A stretch of DNA of 30,722 bases from the IMG/VR virus record IMGVR_UViG_3300008217_000042, positions 1 through 30,722 of that record; one strand, written 5' to 3'. The number at the start of each line of letters is the position of its first letter. The first letter of the stretch is position 1. This DNA is from a virus. A model generated the notes under the pieces. It was given only the letters and a program-made list of their open reading frames with translations. It did not search any database and was not told where the DNA came from. This document shows positions 20,959-28,809 of the stretch, in pieces. The position numbers were made by a program, and so were the translations under genes.

Positions 20959-21804
20959 TCAAATTATTTTTGCGTAGCTAATAACTTTTTTAACTAATTC
21001 ATCATCATTCATATCTTTTGGGTCTTTGTCTATAGGAATAACACGACAAGACTTAAAAAATAAAGAATAACGATGTTTTATTTTTAAGGCGTGGGATATT
21101 GCATCATTATCTAATACAATGATTACATCTTTTCCAGACAATAAACTCATTGCATTAGTGGGTATTGAATTAGATAATAATGCTATACTCTGCTCATACC
21201 TAGCCATTCTTATAGAACTTACTATATCTTCTACCAATATAAATATATTTTTTACGTCATATTCCCTCCTGTAAGGAAAACTTACGTTGTAATAATTATT
21301 ACTTCTATTAATCCAATATGTCCTAGATTTTACTCCGTCATATTTTTTACCAGACAATTCTTTATAGTAACGAGAGACATACCCTTTTGTATTACCATTT
21401 TGTGATAATATTGGATATATTATTCTTTCTGTTTTGTCGCACCATTTTATTTTATTTAATATAATTTCTTCATTAGTTAGTTCAAATTTATTTTGTAAAT
21501 ATAAAATTTGACTTTCATTTAAGTTAATAATGTGCGACTCGTAAGGGTATTCCTCAGTCTTACGAACAATCGATGAATTAAAAGGTAAAAATTCTCGACT
21601 GTTCCATTCTCCTAAGTTACTGGGAATAAATCCCTTAGAATCGCACGCAACTCTAAAACACTTGTACAATAATCCATCTTCAGTTCTGGTTACAGCAAAA
21701 TCTCCATTTTGTTTAAGACAAAAAGGACATTGAACAGACCTAGTAGTTTCTCCTACTTCTAATTCAGAATTAAGGTGTGAAAGTTGTGTTCTACAATTAG
21801 GCAC
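20959..21804 (-). CDS. DNA primase (T7 gp4 N-terminal type), GTG start
   Basis: 281 aa. A zinc-binding module has Cys26, Cys29, Cys49 and Cys54 (QCPFC...YKCFRVAC). Then comes a primase core with KGYVSRYYKEL (about 140-150) and a Toprim fold with VEDIVSS (Glu192), VLDNDA (Asp232, Asp234) and KDPKDM (Asp261). This is the arrangement of phage T7-type primases, which make short RNA primers at recognition sites read by the zinc module. The helicase half is a separate gene downstream across an AT-rich gap. The start is GTG, overlapping the GGCT gene by 8 bases. The primase thus appears translationally tied to the amide-bond island rather than to the helicase. Confidence 0.87.
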   Translation of the reverse strand: MPNCRTQLSHLNSELEVGETTRSVQCPFCLKQNGDFAVTRTEDGLLYKCFRVACDSKGFIPSNLGEWNSREFLPFNSSIVRKTEEYPYESHIINLNESQILYLQNKFELTNEEIILNKIKWCDKTERIIYPILSQNGNTKGYVSRYYKELSGKKYDGVKSRTYWINRSNNYYNVSFPYRREYDVKNIFILVEDIVSSIRMARYEQSIALLSNSIPTNAMSLLSGKDVIIVLDNDAISHALKIKHRYSLFFKSCRVIPIDKDPKDMNDDELVKKVISYAKII

Positions 21805-22219
21805 TATAATCTGTGCCAGTTATACCATATGAAGGGTCATCATAACCATACCAAGTACCCTTATCTACACTCCTCAATTCTCTAGAAGATAACTCATCAG
21901 GTATAAAATACACCCAACAAGTGTGTGTCTTATCTGCCGAATCCAATATGGTAAATTGTTCCCTTTTATAAAAAGTTGGATATCCTTCTAAATAATCCAC
22001 ATTTTTGAAAGCCTCATCATCTACACTCCATATCTCTCCAATAATTTCCTGAGATGAACTTTTACCAGATGGTATAAGTGCTGGAAATGAACCCATACTT
22101 ACCATTCTAAGTTGATATGCTTCATCTAATCTTCCTACACCACAAAATATACCATTTTTAATAATTGAAAAATTTGGTTGGTGTTGTTTCAATGTTCCAT
22201 ACACAAATATTTTATTCAT
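21797..22219 (-). CDS. Gamma-glutamylcyclotransferase-like (GGCT/AIG2) protein
   Basis: 140 aa with the family signature: FVYGTLK at residues 5-11 (the YGTL anion-binding loop), GxFPALIPS at about 43-51, an EIIGEIWSVDDEA segment at about 58-70, and YLEGYPTFYKRE at 76-87, whose Glu78 is the expected catalytic acid/base. Family members release 5-oxoproline from gamma-glutamyl amines or peptides. In an operon of amide-forming enzymes it could edit, trim or recycle gamma-glutamyl bonds. Strong GGAGG ahead of the ATG, with an ATGA overlap to the ATP-grasp gene. Fold assignment is firm; substrate is unknown. Confidence 0.88.
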   Translation of the reverse strand: MNKIFVYGTLKQHQPNFSIIKNGIFCGVGRLDEAYQLRMVSMGSFPALIPSGKSSSQEIIGEIWSVDDEAFKNVDYLEGYPTFYKREQFTILDSADKTHTCWVYFIPDELSSRELRSVDKGTWYGYDDPSYGITGTDYSA

Positions 22220-22974
22220 AATAACCTCCGTACCTGTTGACTATATAAATCTAAAGTAGTTCCTTCTAACGCTGGTGCAGTATTAACCTCGTAAACAAAT
22301 GCTTTTTGAGAGCTTGCCTGCCAACCAACATCTACAGCTCCAAAATCTAAATTCAATGCTTCAACTGCTAATAACGCCTGTTCCACAACATCTTGTGGTA
22401 CAGCTATATTCTTACTACCAAATATCCACCCATTATTATAATTACGTATTTGAAAGTTGTTACCAACACTTCCATTACGCAGCATTTTTTTCTGCATGAA
22501 AGTGATAGTACCCATAAAAATATGTATCCTGTACTCATCAGATTTTTTTACGTACCTCGTATACAACGTACATTCAGGCAAATCATTCTCATTATCAATT
22601 AGGTAAATACCGCGTCCTCCGCAACCTCGTAATAATTTTCTAGCAACTGCTACCCTATCTTTTTTAATCCATCTTTCAGCTACATCTTTAAACGTAGTAA
22701 AACTAGGAATACGAACTTTGTTTAGCATACACTCTAGTGCTATGTGTTTATTCTGTGCCTTAGCTACAGACTTAGGATTATTTACAATGTAAATATTTTC
22801 ATTCCACCAATTTGGAAATCTCGAGTTACCCCAGTTTATAACTAAATGATTATCGTAATGTGAATAATTACCATTCTCCCGCACACGCTTACATCTTAAA
22901 TCAGATAAAGAATTAGATAATGCTTTGGCTGACTCAGATTGTAATTTGTAAGGATATATTATAGGTCTAAGCAT
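22216..22974 (-). CDS. ATP-grasp carboxylate-amine ligase
   Basis: 252 aa with ATP-grasp hallmarks: an N-terminal domain ending in VINWGNS (about 45-51), a lysine/arginine-bearing nucleotide strand and Gly-rich loop VARKLLRGCGGRGIYLI (about 110-126), SDEYRIHIF with Glu147 and Arg149, and the metal site FGAVDVGW (Asp215) and FVYEVNTAPALEGTT (Glu229, Asn231). Such enzymes activate a carboxylate as acyl phosphate and join it to an amine. The layout resembles the RimK-type group found in phages, which adds amino acids or peptides to an acceptor. It overlaps the 167-aa gene upstream by 8 bases and GGCT downstream by 4. Acceptor unknown. Confidence 0.85.
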   Translation of the reverse strand: MLRPIIYPYKLQSESAKALSNSLSDLRCKRVRENGNYSHYDNHLVINWGNSRFPNWWNENIYIVNNPKSVAKAQNKHIALECMLNKVRIPSFTTFKDVAERWIKKDRVAVARKLLRGCGGRGIYLIDNENDLPECTLYTRYVKKSDEYRIHIFMGTITFMQKKMLRNGSVGNNFQIRNYNNGWIFGSKNIAVPQDVVEQALLAVEALNLDFGAVDVGWQASSQKAFVYEVNTAPALEGTTLDLYSQQVRRLL

Positions 22975-23470
22975 TAGCTAATGACTCATTAGTAACATCT
23001 AATACTTCACATACTTGATAATGTGGATTAACCTTAACTTTGGTAAGATACTTAGTCCACATCTGTACGTGATATGGAGAGTTAGGATTCTTAACAGCTA
23101 ATCCATCAGTATTCCAATCATCCCACTCAGCAAATTCTCGCGTAACAAATACTGCACGATTATTGCCACGCATCTTAACATAATCCATTAATATAACAAT
23201 GCCAGCAGTCCAAGAACGCCTGTGTCCACCCTCATTTAGATAATCTCTGAGTATGGTAAACGCCTCCAATTTGAGTTCTTTACTAATATTTCTGTAAGAC
23301 ATAGACGAGTAGTATCCTTCTCCACCAGTCTCTCTCCAACCAGCAATATGTATGTCAGCTAATACTTGACCACCGCAGCAACTACCTGCTTTGCTGTAAT
23401 CGTAGCCAACATAATATTTTTTAACATCGCCATTTTCATCTGCGAAAGTAAATTTTACTTTGTCGTGCAT
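22967..23470 (-). CDS. Unrecognised protein within the amide-bond island
   Basis: 167 aa, no family recognised. Notable are a CCGG at about 31-34, many aromatic residues, a GGHRRSWTAGIVILMDYVKM segment, and WDDWNTDGLAVKNPNSPYHV toward the end, which looks conserved and enzyme-like rather than structural. It has a strong AGGAG ahead of its ATG and overlaps the ATP-grasp gene by 8 bases, lying directly after the glutamine amidotransferase. It could be an acceptor substrate, a tailoring enzyme or a regulator of the island. These are guesses from position. Confidence 0.55.
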   Translation of the reverse strand: MHDKVKFTFADENGDVKKYYVGYDYSKAGSCCGGQVLADIHIAGWRETGGEGYYSSMSYRNISKELKLEAFTILRDYLNEGGHRRSWTAGIVILMDYVKMRGNNRAVFVTREFAEWDDWNTDGLAVKNPNSPYHVQMWTKYLTKVKVNPHYQVCEVLDVTNESLANA

Positions 23471-23488
23471 GATATTTCTCCTGTACTA

Positions 23489-24898
23489 TTAACTTGGTTG
23501 AACTGCAATGTGTGAATCATACTCGCCCGTTTTGGTGCAGTCTTGACAAATCGGACGATTCGTATCAGTCCAAGAAATTGAATAATCATCTATTGAATTG
23601 ATTGGACATGAACAAACCTCGCAACCATCTTCGGTAGCTTTTCTAAATACTTCGTAGTCAACGTACTTACCATTAACTAAATAACTCTGACCTGATACAT
23701 CGCATGGGGCATCATCCCACACAACATCATCGTATTCATCATAGAGGTCGTCAAATACCTCTATTATGCTACTTGGGTCTAACATCAATGTGTGCTTATC
23801 AATATACCCCATATATTTTTTATTTTCTGACATAGATATCAACCTACCTGAACATATCTCACCAACTTCCATTGTTGCAAGATGTTTCTGATAATTATGA
23901 ACCTTAACTTTATATTGAGGAAAATTATTCCTTCTGCCAATTAAGCACCCACGAGTATTATTTTTATATGGTTCAAAGGATTCATACGTAAATTCTATTT
24001 CATCATATTTACACATTCCAATACATTTGAATGGATTGTTATCATCTTCATCAGAAAATAAATCATCTACTCTGGTTACGTTATGTTGTTGTCTACGACC
24101 AACGTATGGAGTACACATTCCATAATCATCATCCCAATAATTATTGTAATAATGTGCATAAGTGGGTCTAACTTGCTGTCCATCATATATTTTCTTAGTC
24201 TCAAACTTTCTATCTTTATCGAATGTTAATAATGTACCAACATTTAATGAGAATATCTTAGATAATTCTACTTCATTTCTTTTAGCCACAAAGTATAGTG
24301 CTTCAGCCTCAGACGCAAATAATACTACATCATCATCTTTCACGATACCAAAATGTAGGGGGCGTTCTGTATTGCGGATAAAATGTAACTTACGCTTTGA
24401 AGTGTCATACCACACAATAGTAAACGCTCCCTCTACTTTTTGGATAAAATCTTCTATGGAATTTTTACTCAAGGCAATAGCCAATGACTCAGAATCCACA
24501 TTACAATCTGTGCCTTTCTTATCAGCTAGCACACATATCTCGTGCTTGTTTCCAACATTTCCATTGTGTACTAATACTATATTTTTACAAATAAACGGGT
24601 GTGCATTGTCATCATTGATTTCCCCAGTAGTAGCGTATCTGGTATGCCCAATAACATATTTATAATTATTAAAATCTTTCATTATAGTTGTAAACTGCTC
24701 AGTATCTATAAATTGTCCTGCGGACACAGCTCGTTTAAGCACGCTTACAGTCTTATTATTATCTATTGGCACAGTAAACATACCTGTGGAATGTTTGCCA
24801 CGCAAAGATGTGGCTACCAATAAGTCTCTGAATAACTTTTTCTCTGACAACCCAAATTGTAATTGTGATAAATTAATTATGCCTGTTATGCCACACAT
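23489..24898 (-). CDS. Class II glutamine amidotransferase with extended C-terminus
   Basis: 469 aa. The first ~235 residues are a class II (Ntn-type) glutaminase: Cys2 nucleophile after Met removal (MCGITGI), SLRGKHSTGM (31-40), GHTRYATTG (84-92), HPF (100-102), HNGNVGN (111-117) and DSES (135-138), matching the glutamine pocket of GFAT and asparagine synthase. It should release ammonia from glutamine. No synthase domain follows. Instead there is about 230 residues with acidic runs (FDDLYDEYDD) and a putative zinc ribbon, Cys426/Cys429 and Cys451/Cys454. The ammonia acceptor enzyme must be another protein, probably one of the ligases in this operon. The start abuts the amidoligase stop (TAA-ATG), with GAGGG upstream. 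Confidence 0.87.
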   Translation of the reverse strand: MCGITGIINLSQLQFGLSEKKLFRDLLVATSLRGKHSTGMFTVPIDNNKTVSVLKRAVSAGQFIDTEQFTTIMKDFNNYKYVIGHTRYATTGEINDDNAHPFICKNIVLVHNGNVGNKHEICVLADKKGTDCNVDSESLAIALSKNSIEDFIQKVEGAFTIVWYDTSKRKLHFIRNTERPLHFGIVKDDDVVLFASEAEALYFVAKRNEVELSKIFSLNVGTLLTFDKDRKFETKKIYDGQQVRPTYAHYYNNYWDDDYGMCTPYVGRRQQHNVTRVDDLFSDEDDNNPFKCIGMCKYDEIEFTYESFEPYKNNTRGCLIGRRNNFPQYKVKVHNYQKHLATMEVGEICSGRLISMSENKKYMGYIDKHTLMLDPSSIIEVFDDLYDEYDDVVWDDAPCDVSGQSYLVNGKYVDYEVFRKATEDGCEVCSCPINSIDDYSISWTDTNRPICQDCTKTGEYDSHIAVQPS

Positions 24899-26107
24899 TT
24901 ATAATCCCTCATCATAGTATTCATCATTCTCGTCATATTGACCTTCATCATAATCTTCTTCATTGTAATCTTCTTCATCATCATAATGTTCTTGTACATC
25001 TCCGATGTTATCGTTAAAGAAATTTCCCATAGTATATCTAAATCGAGGTGTATCAATATCTCTGTCTATTCTTTGCATATATTTATTTAATGGGTAAGGA
25101 ATTATGTACTCATCTACCTGCTCGGCAATGTCTGTTTCTCTAGGTAGTAGTACAGTGTTATTCTTAAAATAATCTATGCTACTTTCTTTCATGTTGTTAT
25201 AAAGTAAAATATCCTGTGCTAATCTTATACCCTCGATTATGTCTGACTCACATTCATTGTAGTCTAGTATTTGATGATAGTTCTTAAATACTTTCTCTAG
25301 GTAATTTGAAATACCAAATCTAGATATTTCTCTGTGCAAATTATTGGCAGAGTTACCAATACAATTTTTCTTCAGACACATAATTATATTAATCCACTCT
25401 TTGACACGCATTATATCGTATGTGCCACCATGTAATCTAAATTCTAGACTGCCATAAGTGGAGGTAGCTTTTAAATTTAATGCACTATATTTAGGAAAAC
25501 CATTTACGTGCTTCTTAAAGTCCAAGTCTTTTTCTACTGACGTCAGTATGTTAGATAATGTACGTTTAAAATCATCAGACCTAGCGAAGGGCAAACAGTA
25601 TAAATTTTCTTTTCTATGTACACCACAATAATTAAATAACACATTCTCAAATATAGCATAGTCAATAAGCAGTCTAGCGTATTCATTTTTATTTAAGTCA
25701 GTAACATCTAAATGTATATGTACGCTACATCTGTCTGATGGAATACTATTGGGTACAGTAATAGCCGCAAGATATTCATTTAATTCATTCAGGGCTACAG
25801 CTAAATCTTTGCCAAATATCTTCTTAGTAACAAATTCAACTCCATTATTACGTAAACTGCCGTCATTCTTTACATTCCAATACCCAGTACCAAAAAATAT
25901 TCCTCTGGTTTCCGCGTCAAAACTAAAATATGGATTATCAGAGTCTCTATTTACTCCATTATGTACAAAATGACTAGCCTCTTTCATATTTTCTAACTCA
26001 ACTTCTACACCAATAATACATCTTGGTAATACAAAATCACTAGACTCCTGATAAGAAAATACGTTTCTATTTTTTTCGAATATTGAACCTATGTTATCTG
26101 TGGGCAT
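24899..26107 (-). CDS. Amidoligase_2-type putative amidoligase with acidic tail
   Basis: 402 aa, of the glutamine-synthetase-like amidoligase superfamily. Visible landmarks: IGVEVELEN (Glu35, Glu37; the GxExE strand), WNVKNDGSLRNNGVEFVT (77-94), SVHIHLD (His130, His132) and YSALNLKATSTYGSLEFRLH (207-226, with Glu222 and Arg224). These enzymes are predicted to make amide bonds using ATP. The last 30 residues are almost only Asp, Glu and Tyr (17 acidic, 6 Tyr), unlike a catalytic domain. Preceded by GGAGGAATGTTAA ahead of the ATG; overlaps the 223-aa gene by 14 bases. Family fit is good; the substrate is unknown. Confidence 0.8.
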   Translation of the reverse strand: MPTDNIGSIFEKNRNVFSYQESSDFVLPRCIIGVEVELENMKEASHFVHNGVNRDSDNPYFSFDAETRGIFFGTGYWNVKNDGSLRNNGVEFVTKKIFGKDLAVALNELNEYLAAITVPNSIPSDRCSVHIHLDVTDLNKNEYARLLIDYAIFENVLFNYCGVHRKENLYCLPFARSDDFKRTLSNILTSVEKDLDFKKHVNGFPKYSALNLKATSTYGSLEFRLHGGTYDIMRVKEWINIIMCLKKNCIGNSANNLHREISRFGISNYLEKVFKNYHQILDYNECESDIIEGIRLAQDILLYNNMKESSIDYFKNNTVLLPRETDIAEQVDEYIIPYPLNKYMQRIDRDIDTPRFRYTMGNFFNDNIGDVQEHYDDEEDYNEEDYDEGQYDENDEYYDEGL

Positions 26108-26765
26108 TTAACATTCCTCCAATCTGAATATTTTCTAATTGTATCAAATCTATTAAGTCATTGTTTCCATTAAATAAATCTACTGTTGGGTACATTGACT
26201 TGTCTCTCATTTTACCAACTAATATATCTTTATACCCAAGATAAATACCCTCGCTGTTCCACGTAGAACTTACATATAAATCTTTTGATATAGCACCTGC
26301 ATATCTGTCTCCAGATGTAATCCTACTTATAGCACCACTAACTGTGAAATAACTTGGAAAAAATACTTCCCTTATAAACTTTGGTTTTCTTAAATCTTCG
26401 TAGTTAAATAAAGGAAGTTTAAATATTTCTTTTAAGTCATGATTCAATTGAGTTATGTTTACAACTCTCTCATTAAAAGATTGTCTGTATTGTTGTGTAG
26501 CAAATCTAGATAGTCTGACAACACCTTTCTTAGCATTTAATAATCCCAATCTAGGAAACTTAAAATCAATTTCAATATATTCTACTCTATGTCTAGTCGG
26601 CAACCACTCATTATCATCTCCAATAATTGAACCTGAAATATTGTTTCTATCTTCATCAATATCGTCAACATAAAATAAGTTAGGTTTTGTATCATTTAGG
26701 TAGAGTAATACAGTGCAAGTTCTATATCTCTGTCTAAAATCTCTCCTGTCTTCTGTAATAATCAC
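26094..26765 (-). CDS. Unrecognised 223-aa protein between two amidoligases, GTG start
   Basis: 223 aa, rich in beta strands, with no recognised motif. Regions that look conserved: RTCTVLLYLNDTKPNLFYVD near the N-terminus, RHRVEYIEIDFKFPRLGLLN at about 58-77, and KFIREVFFPSYFTVSGAISR at about 129-148. The start is GTG, sharing TAGTG with the stop of the COOH-NH2 ligase. It overlaps the Amidoligase_2 gene by 14 bases. Its constant coupling to both ligases suggests a partner or scaffold in the same process. Nothing in the sequence shows a reaction. Confidence 0.55.
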   Translation of the reverse strand: MIITEDRRDFRQRYRTCTVLLYLNDTKPNLFYVDDIDEDRNNISGSIIGDDNEWLPTRHRVEYIEIDFKFPRLGLLNAKKGVVRLSRFATQQYRQSFNERVVNITQLNHDLKEIFKLPLFNYEDLRKPKFIREVFFPSYFTVSGAISRITSGDRYAGAISKDLYVSSTWNSEGIYLGYKDILVGKMRDKSMYPTVDLFNGNNDLIDLIQLENIQIGGMLNAHR

Positions 26766-27604
26766 TATGAAGTCCCCAAAGTTGGTACATGCATACCATA
26801 ATTTTCACATAAATCCCAAGCATCATCAACAAGACCACAATTAATAATATCTTGAAAATTATCCTCTCCGACATCTGCTATTCTTCGCTCGTGTGTAGGT
26901 TGTTCATTATTTGGTAAATAATGTAATACGTCAAAAGTCATTGCTTTTATCTGTTCAAATACCCACGCTTTTATATTATCGTTACTCAACCATATATTAC
27001 TAGGAGTTCTATATTCAATTCCATATTCTTTTTGCCTGAATGAACCTGCCTGACCATAAAATGATTTTCTTTGTGATGTTCCCTCTAATACTGTTAGCGG
27101 TAATCCAATATACCAATCACACCCTTTGACTAAACTACTGCGAGCCATTGGATGAAAATTAGGTTCGGTTAATCCAACATGGATATGACCACCTGCAGTT
27201 CTGATATTATCTTTGTGTAATAATTTAGTGTTCACAACATTTTGTTGTAAAGAATATATGTTGTAGTCAGGATCGCAACCAAATTGTTTAGCTTGTTCAG
27301 ACTTTAAAAACTCAGGCTCAAACTTTTGGAAGTCCATTATTTTATAGTGTAGGCTATGCGATTTTATGATAGTTCTTAATGATTCCATTACATCATTAGT
27401 CCTTTTAACAAATTGTTTTGCTGTGAGTGCGGGTTCAATATTGAGTTCAGCCATAACATTATCCTCCTGAACTGCACCACCATTAACTTCTCTAGGACAC
27501 GCCTTGCTACCACCAACCAAGCCAACGCTCGGATATGCGTTATTATCCTCATCATATAAGAATAACTCAGCATCATGACCAACAGTTAATATTTGTTTTG
27601 GCAT
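26765..27604 (-). CDS. phiEco32-type amidoligase (COOH-NH2 ligase)
   Basis: 279 aa, close to the phiEco32-like amidoligase type 2 pattern: VGHDAELFL (8-16, Asp11, Glu13), DNVMAELNIEPA (48-59, Glu53), TAGGHIHVG (136-144, His140, His142), and RKSFYGQAGSFRQKEYGIEY (179-198, Glu193, Glu197) followed by RTPSNIWL. The repeated acidic and His pairs match metal and ATP binding in the glutamine-synthetase-like fold. The family joins a carboxylate to an amine, judged from its structure class; no substrate is known to me. AGAGGT lies about 10 bases before the ATG. It is the first gene of the island in transcription order. Confidence 0.85.
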   Translation of the reverse strand: MPKQILTVGHDAELFLYDEDNNAYPSVGLVGGSKACPREVNGGAVQEDNVMAELNIEPALTAKQFVKRTNDVMESLRTIIKSHSLHYKIMDFQKFEPEFLKSEQAKQFGCDPDYNIYSLQQNVVNTKLLHKDNIRTAGGHIHVGLTEPNFHPMARSSLVKGCDWYIGLPLTVLEGTSQRKSFYGQAGSFRQKEYGIEYRTPSNIWLSNDNIKAWVFEQIKAMTFDVLHYLPNNEQPTHERRIADVGEDNFQDIINCGLVDDAWDLCENYGMHVPTLGTS

Positions 27605-28314: not shown

Positions 28315-28809
28315 CTACACCTCCTTAATAGGATTAAACCAACTTGGTACTTCTGAATAATTCCACTTAGCAAATCTAGATTTTTCTACGTTGTAATATT
28401 CTCGATACGCAATAATTGTATTTTTATGTTTGTATTCATCAGGCATACATTGTGGTGGGCAAGTGAACTTTTCACTACCAATATTGTCAGGAACTTTAAT
28501 TAATAAATCGTACATTTCGGTGCATTTATGTATCTTCTCGTACCTAGCAAAGTACTCAAGTAATAAGAAGAAAAATAATTCATGAAGCCACCGATAATTA
28601 TCTTCGGACTTTCTAACCCATACTGCAGATGGGTGGTTGTGATGTGTCTTTTTATACAGATTAAATTCATCACAATAATCATCACCATCACATACTCGGT
28701 GTGCTGTACACAATAATTGTGCTGATTCTAATATCATTTTTACAACGTGTTTGTCGCAGTGCATTTTAGCACATTGGTCAGCGTTTTTATGTAAGTAAAA
28801 TATATTCAT
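28315..28809 (-). CDS. Conserved phage protein with HCDKHVVKM motif
   Basis: 164 aa. The pattern MNIFYLHKNADQCAKMHCDK, HVVKMILESAQLLCTAHR (about 21-38), THHNHPSAVWVRKSEDNY (about 54-71) and CPPQCMPDEYK (about 117-127) is one I have seen repeatedly in phage genomes. The many conserved His, Cys and Asp residues suggest a metal-dependent enzyme. I cannot name a reaction with confidence; annotations as a DNA glycosylase exist in my memory but are not supported by visible motifs. Coupled to the preceding gene by an ATGA overlap. Confidence 0.65.
   Translation of the reverse strand: MNIFYLHKNADQCAKMHCDKHVVKMILESAQLLCTAHRVCDGDDYCDEFNLYKKTHHNHPSAVWVRKSEDNYRWLHELFFFLLLEYFARYEKIHKCTEMYDLLIKVPDNIGSEKFTCPPQCMPDEYKHKNTIIAYREYYNVEKSRFAKWNYSEVPSWFNPIKEV
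28318..28326 (-). promoter_or_regulatory. Strong Shine-Dalgarno sequence deciding a start
   Basis: AAGGAGGTG (on the - strand) is formed by the last sense codons of the upstream gene (Lys-Glu-Val) and lies 4 bases before the ATG at 28313. It selects that ATG over an upstream in-frame ATG at 28373, which would overlap the neighbour by 59 bases. Confidence 0.6.

Follow-up and report, generated by a model that had tools for sequence, protein, structure and literature searches.

We analyzed a stretch of viral DNA of 30,722 bases (IMG/VR virus record IMGVR_UViG_3300008217_000042, a linear fragment with a G+C content of 35.7%; referred to below as the window) and found that it carries a real, intact example of a known but unexplained gene cassette, i.e., the amidoligase cassette of LUZ24/phiEco32-type phages. 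Its six conserved genes encode a phiEco32-type COOH-NH2 ligase (CNL), a protein that we call X, an Amidoligase_2 enzyme, a class II glutaminase, an ATP-grasp ligase, and a gamma-glutamylcyclotransferase (GGCT; Table 1). We lean slightly toward the view that these six genes form one cytosolic pathway, which would build an amide-linked product under a temporary gamma-glutamyl group. Two features are new here and make the question testable: X is a sixth constant protein, and in other phages a Peptidase_C26 protein (C26) stands in for GGCT or accompanies it. The second feature points at a gamma-glutamyl intermediate, with the prediction that a specific compound should accumulate once the last enzyme is removed.

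The original prediction had left open that these genes might co-occur no better than ordinary neighbors; their co-occurrence proved to be far above that level. In a tblastn search of 50,697 phage records, CNL was found in 317, ATP-grasp in 310 (i.e., at least 310 records each, many of them Pseudomonas aeruginosa and Escherichia coli phages), Amidoligase_2 in 340, and glutaminase in 338. The genus tallies for CNL, ATP-grasp, Amidoligase_2, and glutaminase agreed closely, at 121, 120, 119, and 121 for Pseudomonas; 93, 93, 92, and 92 for Escherichia; and 22 each for Vibrio. Against an easy reading of this co-occurrence, GGCT was found in only 70 of these records, and neither X nor a protein of 167 amino acids (aa) encoded within the window's cassette was found in any. 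X and GGCT are found poorly by tblastn because their sequences diverge fast, and profiles are needed. We therefore built profiles from 13 annotated phage regions plus the window and scanned them over the best 80 of 146 IMG/VR loci, which had been chosen for CNL alone; thinning to less than 70% CNL identity left 61 divergent loci.

Among these 61 loci, Amidoligase_2 was recognized in 60, glutaminase in 58, ATP-grasp in 56, and GGCT in 35, and all four core enzymes (CNL, Amidoligase_2, glutaminase, and ATP-grasp) were present together in 56. Every partner gene (259 of 259) lies on the CNL strand, and consecutive cassette genes overlap or are at most 50 nucleotides (nt) apart in 180 of 224 cases. 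The six-family order of the window recurs in 14 loci, and the same order minus GGCT recurs in 15 more. A primase-family gene was recognized in 41 loci, always on the same strand and no more than 2.5 kb past the last core gene (41 of 41); 13 of the 20 loci without a recognized primase had more than 4 kb of downstream sequence. The link between cassette and primase is thus strong but may not be universal.

A pattern-based scan of 84,980 genomes, which gives a lower bound, found 11 further loci, all on contigs of metagenome-assembled genomes (MAGs) and none used for the profiles. Nine of them have matches to CNL, Amidoligase_2, and glutaminase (one glutaminase scoring only 14 bits); X was found in 7, ATP-grasp in 7, C26 in 6, and GGCT in none, and two short contigs have CNL alone. 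Reduced or rearranged sets also occur. Amidoligase_2 and glutaminase were found in 14 Arthrobacter phage records, and in Arthrobacter phage Salgado (8312-10888) GGCT, Amidoligase_2, and glutaminase are adjacent, without CNL, X, or ATP-grasp. Clostridium prophages have been reported, in an excerpted source, to carry amidoligases together with GGCT. The gamma-glutamyl theme is kept in these reduced sets. In the crAss-like Cellulophaga phage phi14:2 (9596-16294), GGCT, ATP-grasp, CNL, glutaminase, and a long Amidoligase_2 directly follow a primase gene, which overlaps GGCT.

Protein X, judged from profile matches, is the sixth conserved member of the cassette. It matches PHROG 11055 (E = 1e-8) and was recognized in 50 of the 61 loci by a first profile and in 53 by a second; all 53 have it between CNL and Amidoligase_2, and in 44 of them the X and Amidoligase_2 genes overlap. 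A structure model of X (pLDDT, 87.2; pTM, 0.82) had no match to solved structures at an E value of 0.001 or less, and 11 matches at this threshold in a viral structure library, most of them nameless in the tables. The protein has no invariant Lys, Cys, or Glu, and the window has R-Q-S in place of its KKG motif. Two roles considered for X were rejected: a carrier or tag, given the absence of an invariant acceptor residue and the loss of the KKG motif in the window, and a nucleic acid binder, given that the Sm-like match is weak (best Z, 5.1; root mean square deviation [rmsd], 3.5; 72 residues) and the charge inconsistent (median isoelectric point, 6.4; above 8 in 20 of 65 proteins).

At the other end of the cassette, the profile score of the window's GGCT against PF06094 (GGACT; 79.8 bits; cutoff, 22.8), together with a conserved YG motif and Glu (Y7, G8, and E78, unchanged throughout an alignment of 14 proteins), places it in the GGCT/GGACT family, and its profile matches structures of YtfP, YkqA, and AIG2-like domain protein 1. 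Of the 61 loci, 35 have a C26 gene inside the cassette or directly next to it, at a median of 19 nt from the cassette edge. PF07722 (Peptidase_C26) scored above its cutoff in all 10 proteins tested, and the presumed triad is largely kept (Cys in 29 of 31 rows, His in 33 of 34, and Glu in all 34). For two C26 proteins scanned, the best NCBIfam match was gamma-glutamyl-CDP-amidate hydrolase, far below the cutoff. GGCT only, C26 only, both, and neither were found in 25, 25, 10, and 1 of the 61 loci and in 20, 12, 9, and 0 of the 41 well-covered ones. Every well-covered locus thus has at least one of two presumed gamma-glutamyl-bond enzymes, which are unrelated to each other. The window has GGCT without C26; its contig ends 3.1 kb upstream of CNL. 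The original prediction had called GGCT a gamma-glutamyl editing enzyme; the gamma-glutamyl class stands, but the protein is better read as a remover, replaced or joined by C26 elsewhere. Two or three adjacent C26 matches occur in two other loci (L057, 6627-8976; L086, 7565-8954) and may be duplications or broken copies.

The combination of two ligases of the glutamine synthetase (GS) fold, an ATP-grasp protein resembling glutamate ligases, a glutaminase, and an obligatory gamma-glutamyl-bond enzyme leads us to the temporary gamma-glutamyl group. CNL and/or Amidoligase_2 would couple an amine to the gamma-carboxylate of glutamate after activating the latter with ATP; a further ATP-dependent amide bond would come from the RimK-type ATP-grasp enzyme; and the glutaminase would supply one of the ligases with ammonia from glutamine. 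In the last step, GGCT would remove the gamma-glutamyl group as 5-oxoproline, and in other phages C26 would remove it as glutamate. X might hold the two GS-fold ligases together or present the substrate. For the product we favor a small amine- or peptide-like compound, which could be made early to aid host takeover or to exclude rivals; the substrates, the order of steps, the role of X, and the nature of this product are our inference. Gamma-glutamyl protection is known from BtrJ/BtrG in butirosin synthesis and PuuA/PuuD in polyamine breakdown, where a ligase adds gamma-glutamate to an amine and a GGCT or C26 enzyme removes it; we liken the cassette to these pairs, although its conserved set, unlike those pathways, contains no acyl carrier protein, oxidase, or dehydrogenase.

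Several observations weigh against this pathway. Ligases of this superfamily need not use glutamate. The ATP-grasp protein misses every curated cutoff, Amidoligase_2 has no solved relative at an E value of 1 or less, and 9 of the 10 C26 proteins also match the class I glutaminase domain PF00117. X is missing from 8 of the 61 loci, 7 of which have a recognized Amidoligase_2 (phi14:2 among them), mostly a long one (median, 523 aa in loci without X versus 334 aa in loci with X) and with no fusion there. Both GGCT and C26 are present in 9 of the 41 well-covered loci, and their alternation follows clades: the CNL tree shows 4 changes of GGCT and 7 of C26, with only 2 independent pairs (4 with weak branches), in none of which do both go the same way, a number too small for significance; the Fisher p value of 5e-8 for the alternation ignores relatedness. 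Independent evolution of the exchange was set aside after this tree test, which offered too few independent pairs. Fusion of X to Amidoligase_2 or glutaminase in the X-less loci was rejected as well, with profile-comparison probabilities of 0.3% or less; in the positive control, Amidoligase_2 compared with its own long forms, the probability was 99.9%.

The enzyme classes named in the original prediction, i.e., three ATP-dependent ligases, a glutaminase, and a gamma-glutamyl enzyme, are borne out by Pfam and PHROG matches, the ATP-grasp class being clear only in PHROGs. The possible loss of catalytic residues, a second doubt left by that prediction, did not materialize: in each enzyme, what we take to be the catalytic residues are conserved across 12 to 14 aligned homologs. 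CNL scored 52.8 bits against PF14395 (COOH-NH2_lig; cutoff, 25) and matched PHROG 3815 (E = 8e-62), and an alignment of 60 homologs has 17 invariant columns. Its structure model (pLDDT, 93.8; pTM, 0.91) resembles YbdK (1r8g; Z = 14.0 over 235 residues; rmsd, 3.8), plant glutamate-cysteine ligase (GCL; 2gwc; Z = 13.6 over 244 residues; rmsd, 3.8), Dop (9cku; Z = 13.3), PafA (4bjr; Z = 13.0), and GS (Z = 12.8; Foldseek E = 3e-6). CNL is thus predicted to have the GS/GCL fold of carboxylate-amine ligases, although it differs from gamma-glutamyl ligases of this fold (YbdK, GshA, GlnA, and PafA; Z = 12.8 to 14.0) in its sequence (12 to 16% identity). YbdK, GCL, Dop/PafA, and GS act on the side-chain carboxylate of glutamate; by analogy with these relatives, gamma-glutamate would be the substrate of CNL. 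The CNL protein of phage RIO-1 has a long N-terminal extension.

Amidoligase_2 scored 42.3 bits against PF12224 (cutoff, 22) and matched PHROG 7469 (E = 1e-53), with E35, E37, H130, H132, E222, and R224 invariant in 13 aligned proteins. Its acidic tail in the window (24899-24990) is 47% Asp/Glu over the last 40 residues, and only one other tail among 90 loci is acidic by the same measure. In phage RIO-1 (8179-9895), the genes annotated as Amidoligase_2 and ATP-grasp share about 400 nt, which they read in different frames. The glutaminase scored 66 bits against PF13522 (GATase_6; cutoff, 27) and matched PHROG 4736 (E = 8e-73); C2, R87, N112, G113, and D135 are invariant in 14 aligned proteins, and the N-terminal Cys and the oxyanion Asn-Gly (C2, N112, and G113) mark it as a class II enzyme. 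Its profile matches GlmS over positions 1 to 225 (E = 3e-23) and nothing beyond. The N-terminal 225 positions and key residues are thus shared with the glutaminase domain of GlmS/PurF, whereas no sugar isomerase, phosphoribosyltransferase, or synthetase domain follows; the C-terminal region of about 240 aa had no synthetase match in Pfam or NCBIfam.

The ATP-grasp protein matches PHROG 2599 (E = 2e-70) and falls below the cutoffs of R2K_2 (R2K clade, PF18299; 16 versus 26.2 bits), of rimK_fam (NCBIfam TIGR00768; 33.6 versus 143.4 bits), and of MptN (43.6 bits). The solved structures nearest to its profile are alpha-L-glutamate ligase (7qyr; E = 2e-9) and RimK/S6-glutamate ligase, and cyanophycin synthase was also matched. 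By its profile matches the protein is a distant relative of the RimK family that fails the family cutoff.

Table 1. Cassette genes of the window and the adjoining primase gene
Gene or product	Coordinates	Strand	Remarks
CNL (phiEco32-type COOH-NH2 ligase)	26765..27604	-	279 aa; predicted glutamine synthetase/glutamate-cysteine ligase fold
X (first unknown of the original prediction)	26094..26765	-	223 aa; GTG start; 1-nt overlap with CNL
Amidoligase_2	24899..26107	-	402 aa; acidic C-terminal tail; 14-nt overlap with X
Class II glutaminase, GlmS-type N-terminal domain (predicted)	23489..24898	-	469 aa; abuts Amidoligase_2
167-aa protein (second unknown of the original prediction)	22967..23470	-	18-nt gap after glutaminase
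ATP-grasp ligase, RimK/alpha-L-glutamate ligase type (predicted)	22216..22974	-	252 aa; 8-nt overlap with 167-aa gene
GGCT, gamma-glutamyl(amine) cyclotransferase, AIG2/GGACT type (predicted)	21797..22219	-	140 aa; 4-nt overlap with ATP-grasp
DNA primase-like gene	20959..21804	-	PHROG 47, E = 1e-19; overlaps GGCT by 8 nt

The seven consecutive genes reported in the original prediction (27604-21797) were recovered exactly as minus-strand open reading frames (ORFs), abutting or overlapping except for one 18-nt gap and running into the primase gene. Their placement in a replication operon also holds: helicase-like, DNA polymerase, and exonuclease genes follow the primase gene downstream, with ribonucleotide reductase farther on. 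Purifying selection, judged from substitution ratios, acts on all seven genes. In comparisons with three kin loci taken one by one (L111, L112, and L114), their ratio of nonsynonymous to synonymous substitution rates (dN/dS) is 0.10 to 0.26, and that of the primase control is 0.16 to 0.19; for L112 and L114, several of the dS values are above 1 and thus saturated, and the CNL ratios cover residue 47 onward only. The seven-gene set nevertheless shrinks to six conserved members. The 167-aa protein had only weak matches (PHROG E values of 0.03 or worse and Pfam E values of 0.075 or worse) and was found only in five viral loci of close kin (69 to 100% identity); it appears to be a local gene of these kin, not a conserved cassette member. 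Because its dN/dS is low (0.11 to 0.24), this gene is functional too, though seen only in kin.

The cassette is not new in kind, so that the island of the original prediction is real but already known. All five enzyme families of the LUZ24/phiEco32 type (CNL, Amidoligase_2, class II glutaminase, ATP-grasp, and GGCT) are in the window, and the window, LUZ24, and phiEco32 agree in the order CNL - X - Amidoligase_2 - glutaminase - ATP-grasp - GGCT - primase on one strand. The excerpted annotation of the LUZ24-like phage UFV-P2 (PMC3890496) gives CNL, a hypothetical protein, Amidoligase_2, HNH, glutaminase, two small genes, ATP-grasp, an AIG2/GGCT protein, one more gene, and primase/helicase. The window shares the cassette order, followed by primase/helicase, with LUZ24-like phages (Bruynoghevirus; UFV-P2, tf, and LUZ24), but it lacks the inserted HNH gene of UFV-P2, has its own 167-aa gene, and has separate primase and helicase genes. 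The phiEco32-type cassette (Gordonclarkvirinae) has all six families in the order of the window, whereas its glutaminase is of 677 aa, its ATP-grasp protein is of 398 aa, and several small genes lie between. Compared with the phage matches listed, identity is at most 39% for the window's CNL and 42% or less for the other cassette proteins, and at the DNA level the window had no match in the 50,697 phage records. The remark in the original prediction that the product is not established agrees with our search of the open-license literature: the papers searched report no product of the cassette since 2009, and nothing on point was found in the metabolomics literature.

Among other explanations, proteins of the host or the phage might be tagged by the ligases with glutamate or a peptide, with GGCT or C26 trimming or editing the tag. 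RimK and PafA tag proteins; ribosomal protein S6 glutamate ligase is among the nearest solved relatives of the ATP-grasp profile, and the CNL model is near PafA (Z = 13.0) and Dop (Z = 13.3). GGCT and C26 enzymes, however, are known for acting on small gamma-glutamyl compounds. No gene for a Pup-like tag was recognized, and X, the sole nonenzyme member, is a poor acceptor candidate for the reason given above (no invariant Lys, Cys, or Glu). Although an excerpt of Burroughs et al. 2015 (PMC4431377) proposes host proteins as targets of modification by phage R2K ATP-grasp enzymes, we regard protein tagging by the cassette as unlikely.

Distinctly less likely is an alteration of the host's peptidoglycan or another surface polymer that keeps competing phages out. 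The isolate hosts among the CNL and ATP-grasp matches listed (60 of 317 and 60 of 310, respectively) are all, as we take them to be, Gram-negative, which would suit a change of the envelope, as would the suggestion that the phiEco32 enzymes alter the cell wall and exclude other phages, attributed to Iyer et al. 2009 in the excerpted text of PMC10580990 and PMC11318856. The conserved set, however, includes no transporter, glycosyltransferase, or lipid-linked-precursor enzyme, and the cassette adjoins primase, not lysis or receptor genes.

The proximity to primase would fit a cassette product joined to a DNA base that shields phage DNA from restriction, which we hold to be highly improbable. DNA bases have no carboxylate and offer poor amines for GS-type chemistry, and the conserved set contains no base-activating gene. 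Moreover, EcoRI, HindIII, Sau3A, and AluI digest the DNA of three LUZ24-like phages (excerpt of PMC3634792; their cassettes were not individually checked), and DNA of phage tf, which has CNL, glutaminase, and ATP-grasp, is cut by RsaI, HpaI, EcoRV, SmaI, and HaeIII (excerpt of PMC3517423); general DNA modification is unlikely because LUZ24-like DNA is cut by these nine enzymes. The PHROG matches of 20 window ORFs (a 30.7-kb fragment, smaller ORFs excluded) name no QueC/D/E, DpdA, or pyrimidine hydroxymethylase.

The digestible DNA of LUZ24-like phages weakens the nucleotide option of the original prediction, but less so for phiEco32-like phages, which resist restriction in vivo for an unexplained reason according to the excerpted BASEL report (PMC11990801), whose authors suspect a dCTP deaminase and nucleotidyltransferase instead. 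A lack of EcoKI or EcoP1I sites was rejected as the cause, since each of two phiEco32-like genomes contains 9 EcoKI sites, and EcoP1I sites number 127 in one and 99 in the other. The excerpted text on phage SU10 does not mention a restriction digest. That an amide-linked group on phage DNA, or a diffusible restriction blocker, explains this resistance seems very unlikely to us, if marginally less so than the general base modification; if true, the digestible LUZ24-like DNA would mean either that the product of those phages is a different one or that it works inside the cell and leaves purified DNA unprotected. As a separate observation, GATC is far rarer than expected in the Bas87 and Bas93 genomes (L106 to L109; 156 versus 352 and 157 versus 327 expected) and likewise scarce in the window (39 versus 88 expected).

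Least credible is a role as auxiliary metabolic genes feeding ammonia into host amino acids, as claimed in an excerpt of PMC10945688 for Poriferisphaera phage ZRK32, which has the same gene types: the ZRK32 record (OP650935.1, 1-21911) is a LUZ24-like fragment with an ordinary six-gene cassette (over 80% of its length it aligns to Pseudomonas phage SCYZ1, with 84.8% identity), a futile cycle would result if a GS-fold ligase and a glutaminase only moved ammonia, and only MAG-contig loci (at least 11) were found in the genome scan, so this is not a common cellular pathway. The title of OP650935.1 marks it as UNVERIFIED_ORG and a partial genome, and ZRK32 was described as a chronic Planctomycete phage with nitrogen genes. 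Membership of the cassette in an antiphage defense system was also considered and rejected, since no PADLOC profile matched the window's seven proteins or one C26 protein at an E value of 0.01.

Upstream of the cassette, the window encodes a 164-aa protein (28315-28809) that matches PHROG 624 (DNA-binding) and is weakly like pyrimidine dimer glycosylase. A 42.6-kb contig (L110; IMGVR_UViG_3300025286_000033) encodes cassette proteins 99.5 to 100% identical to those of the window and could supply the missing part of this phage.

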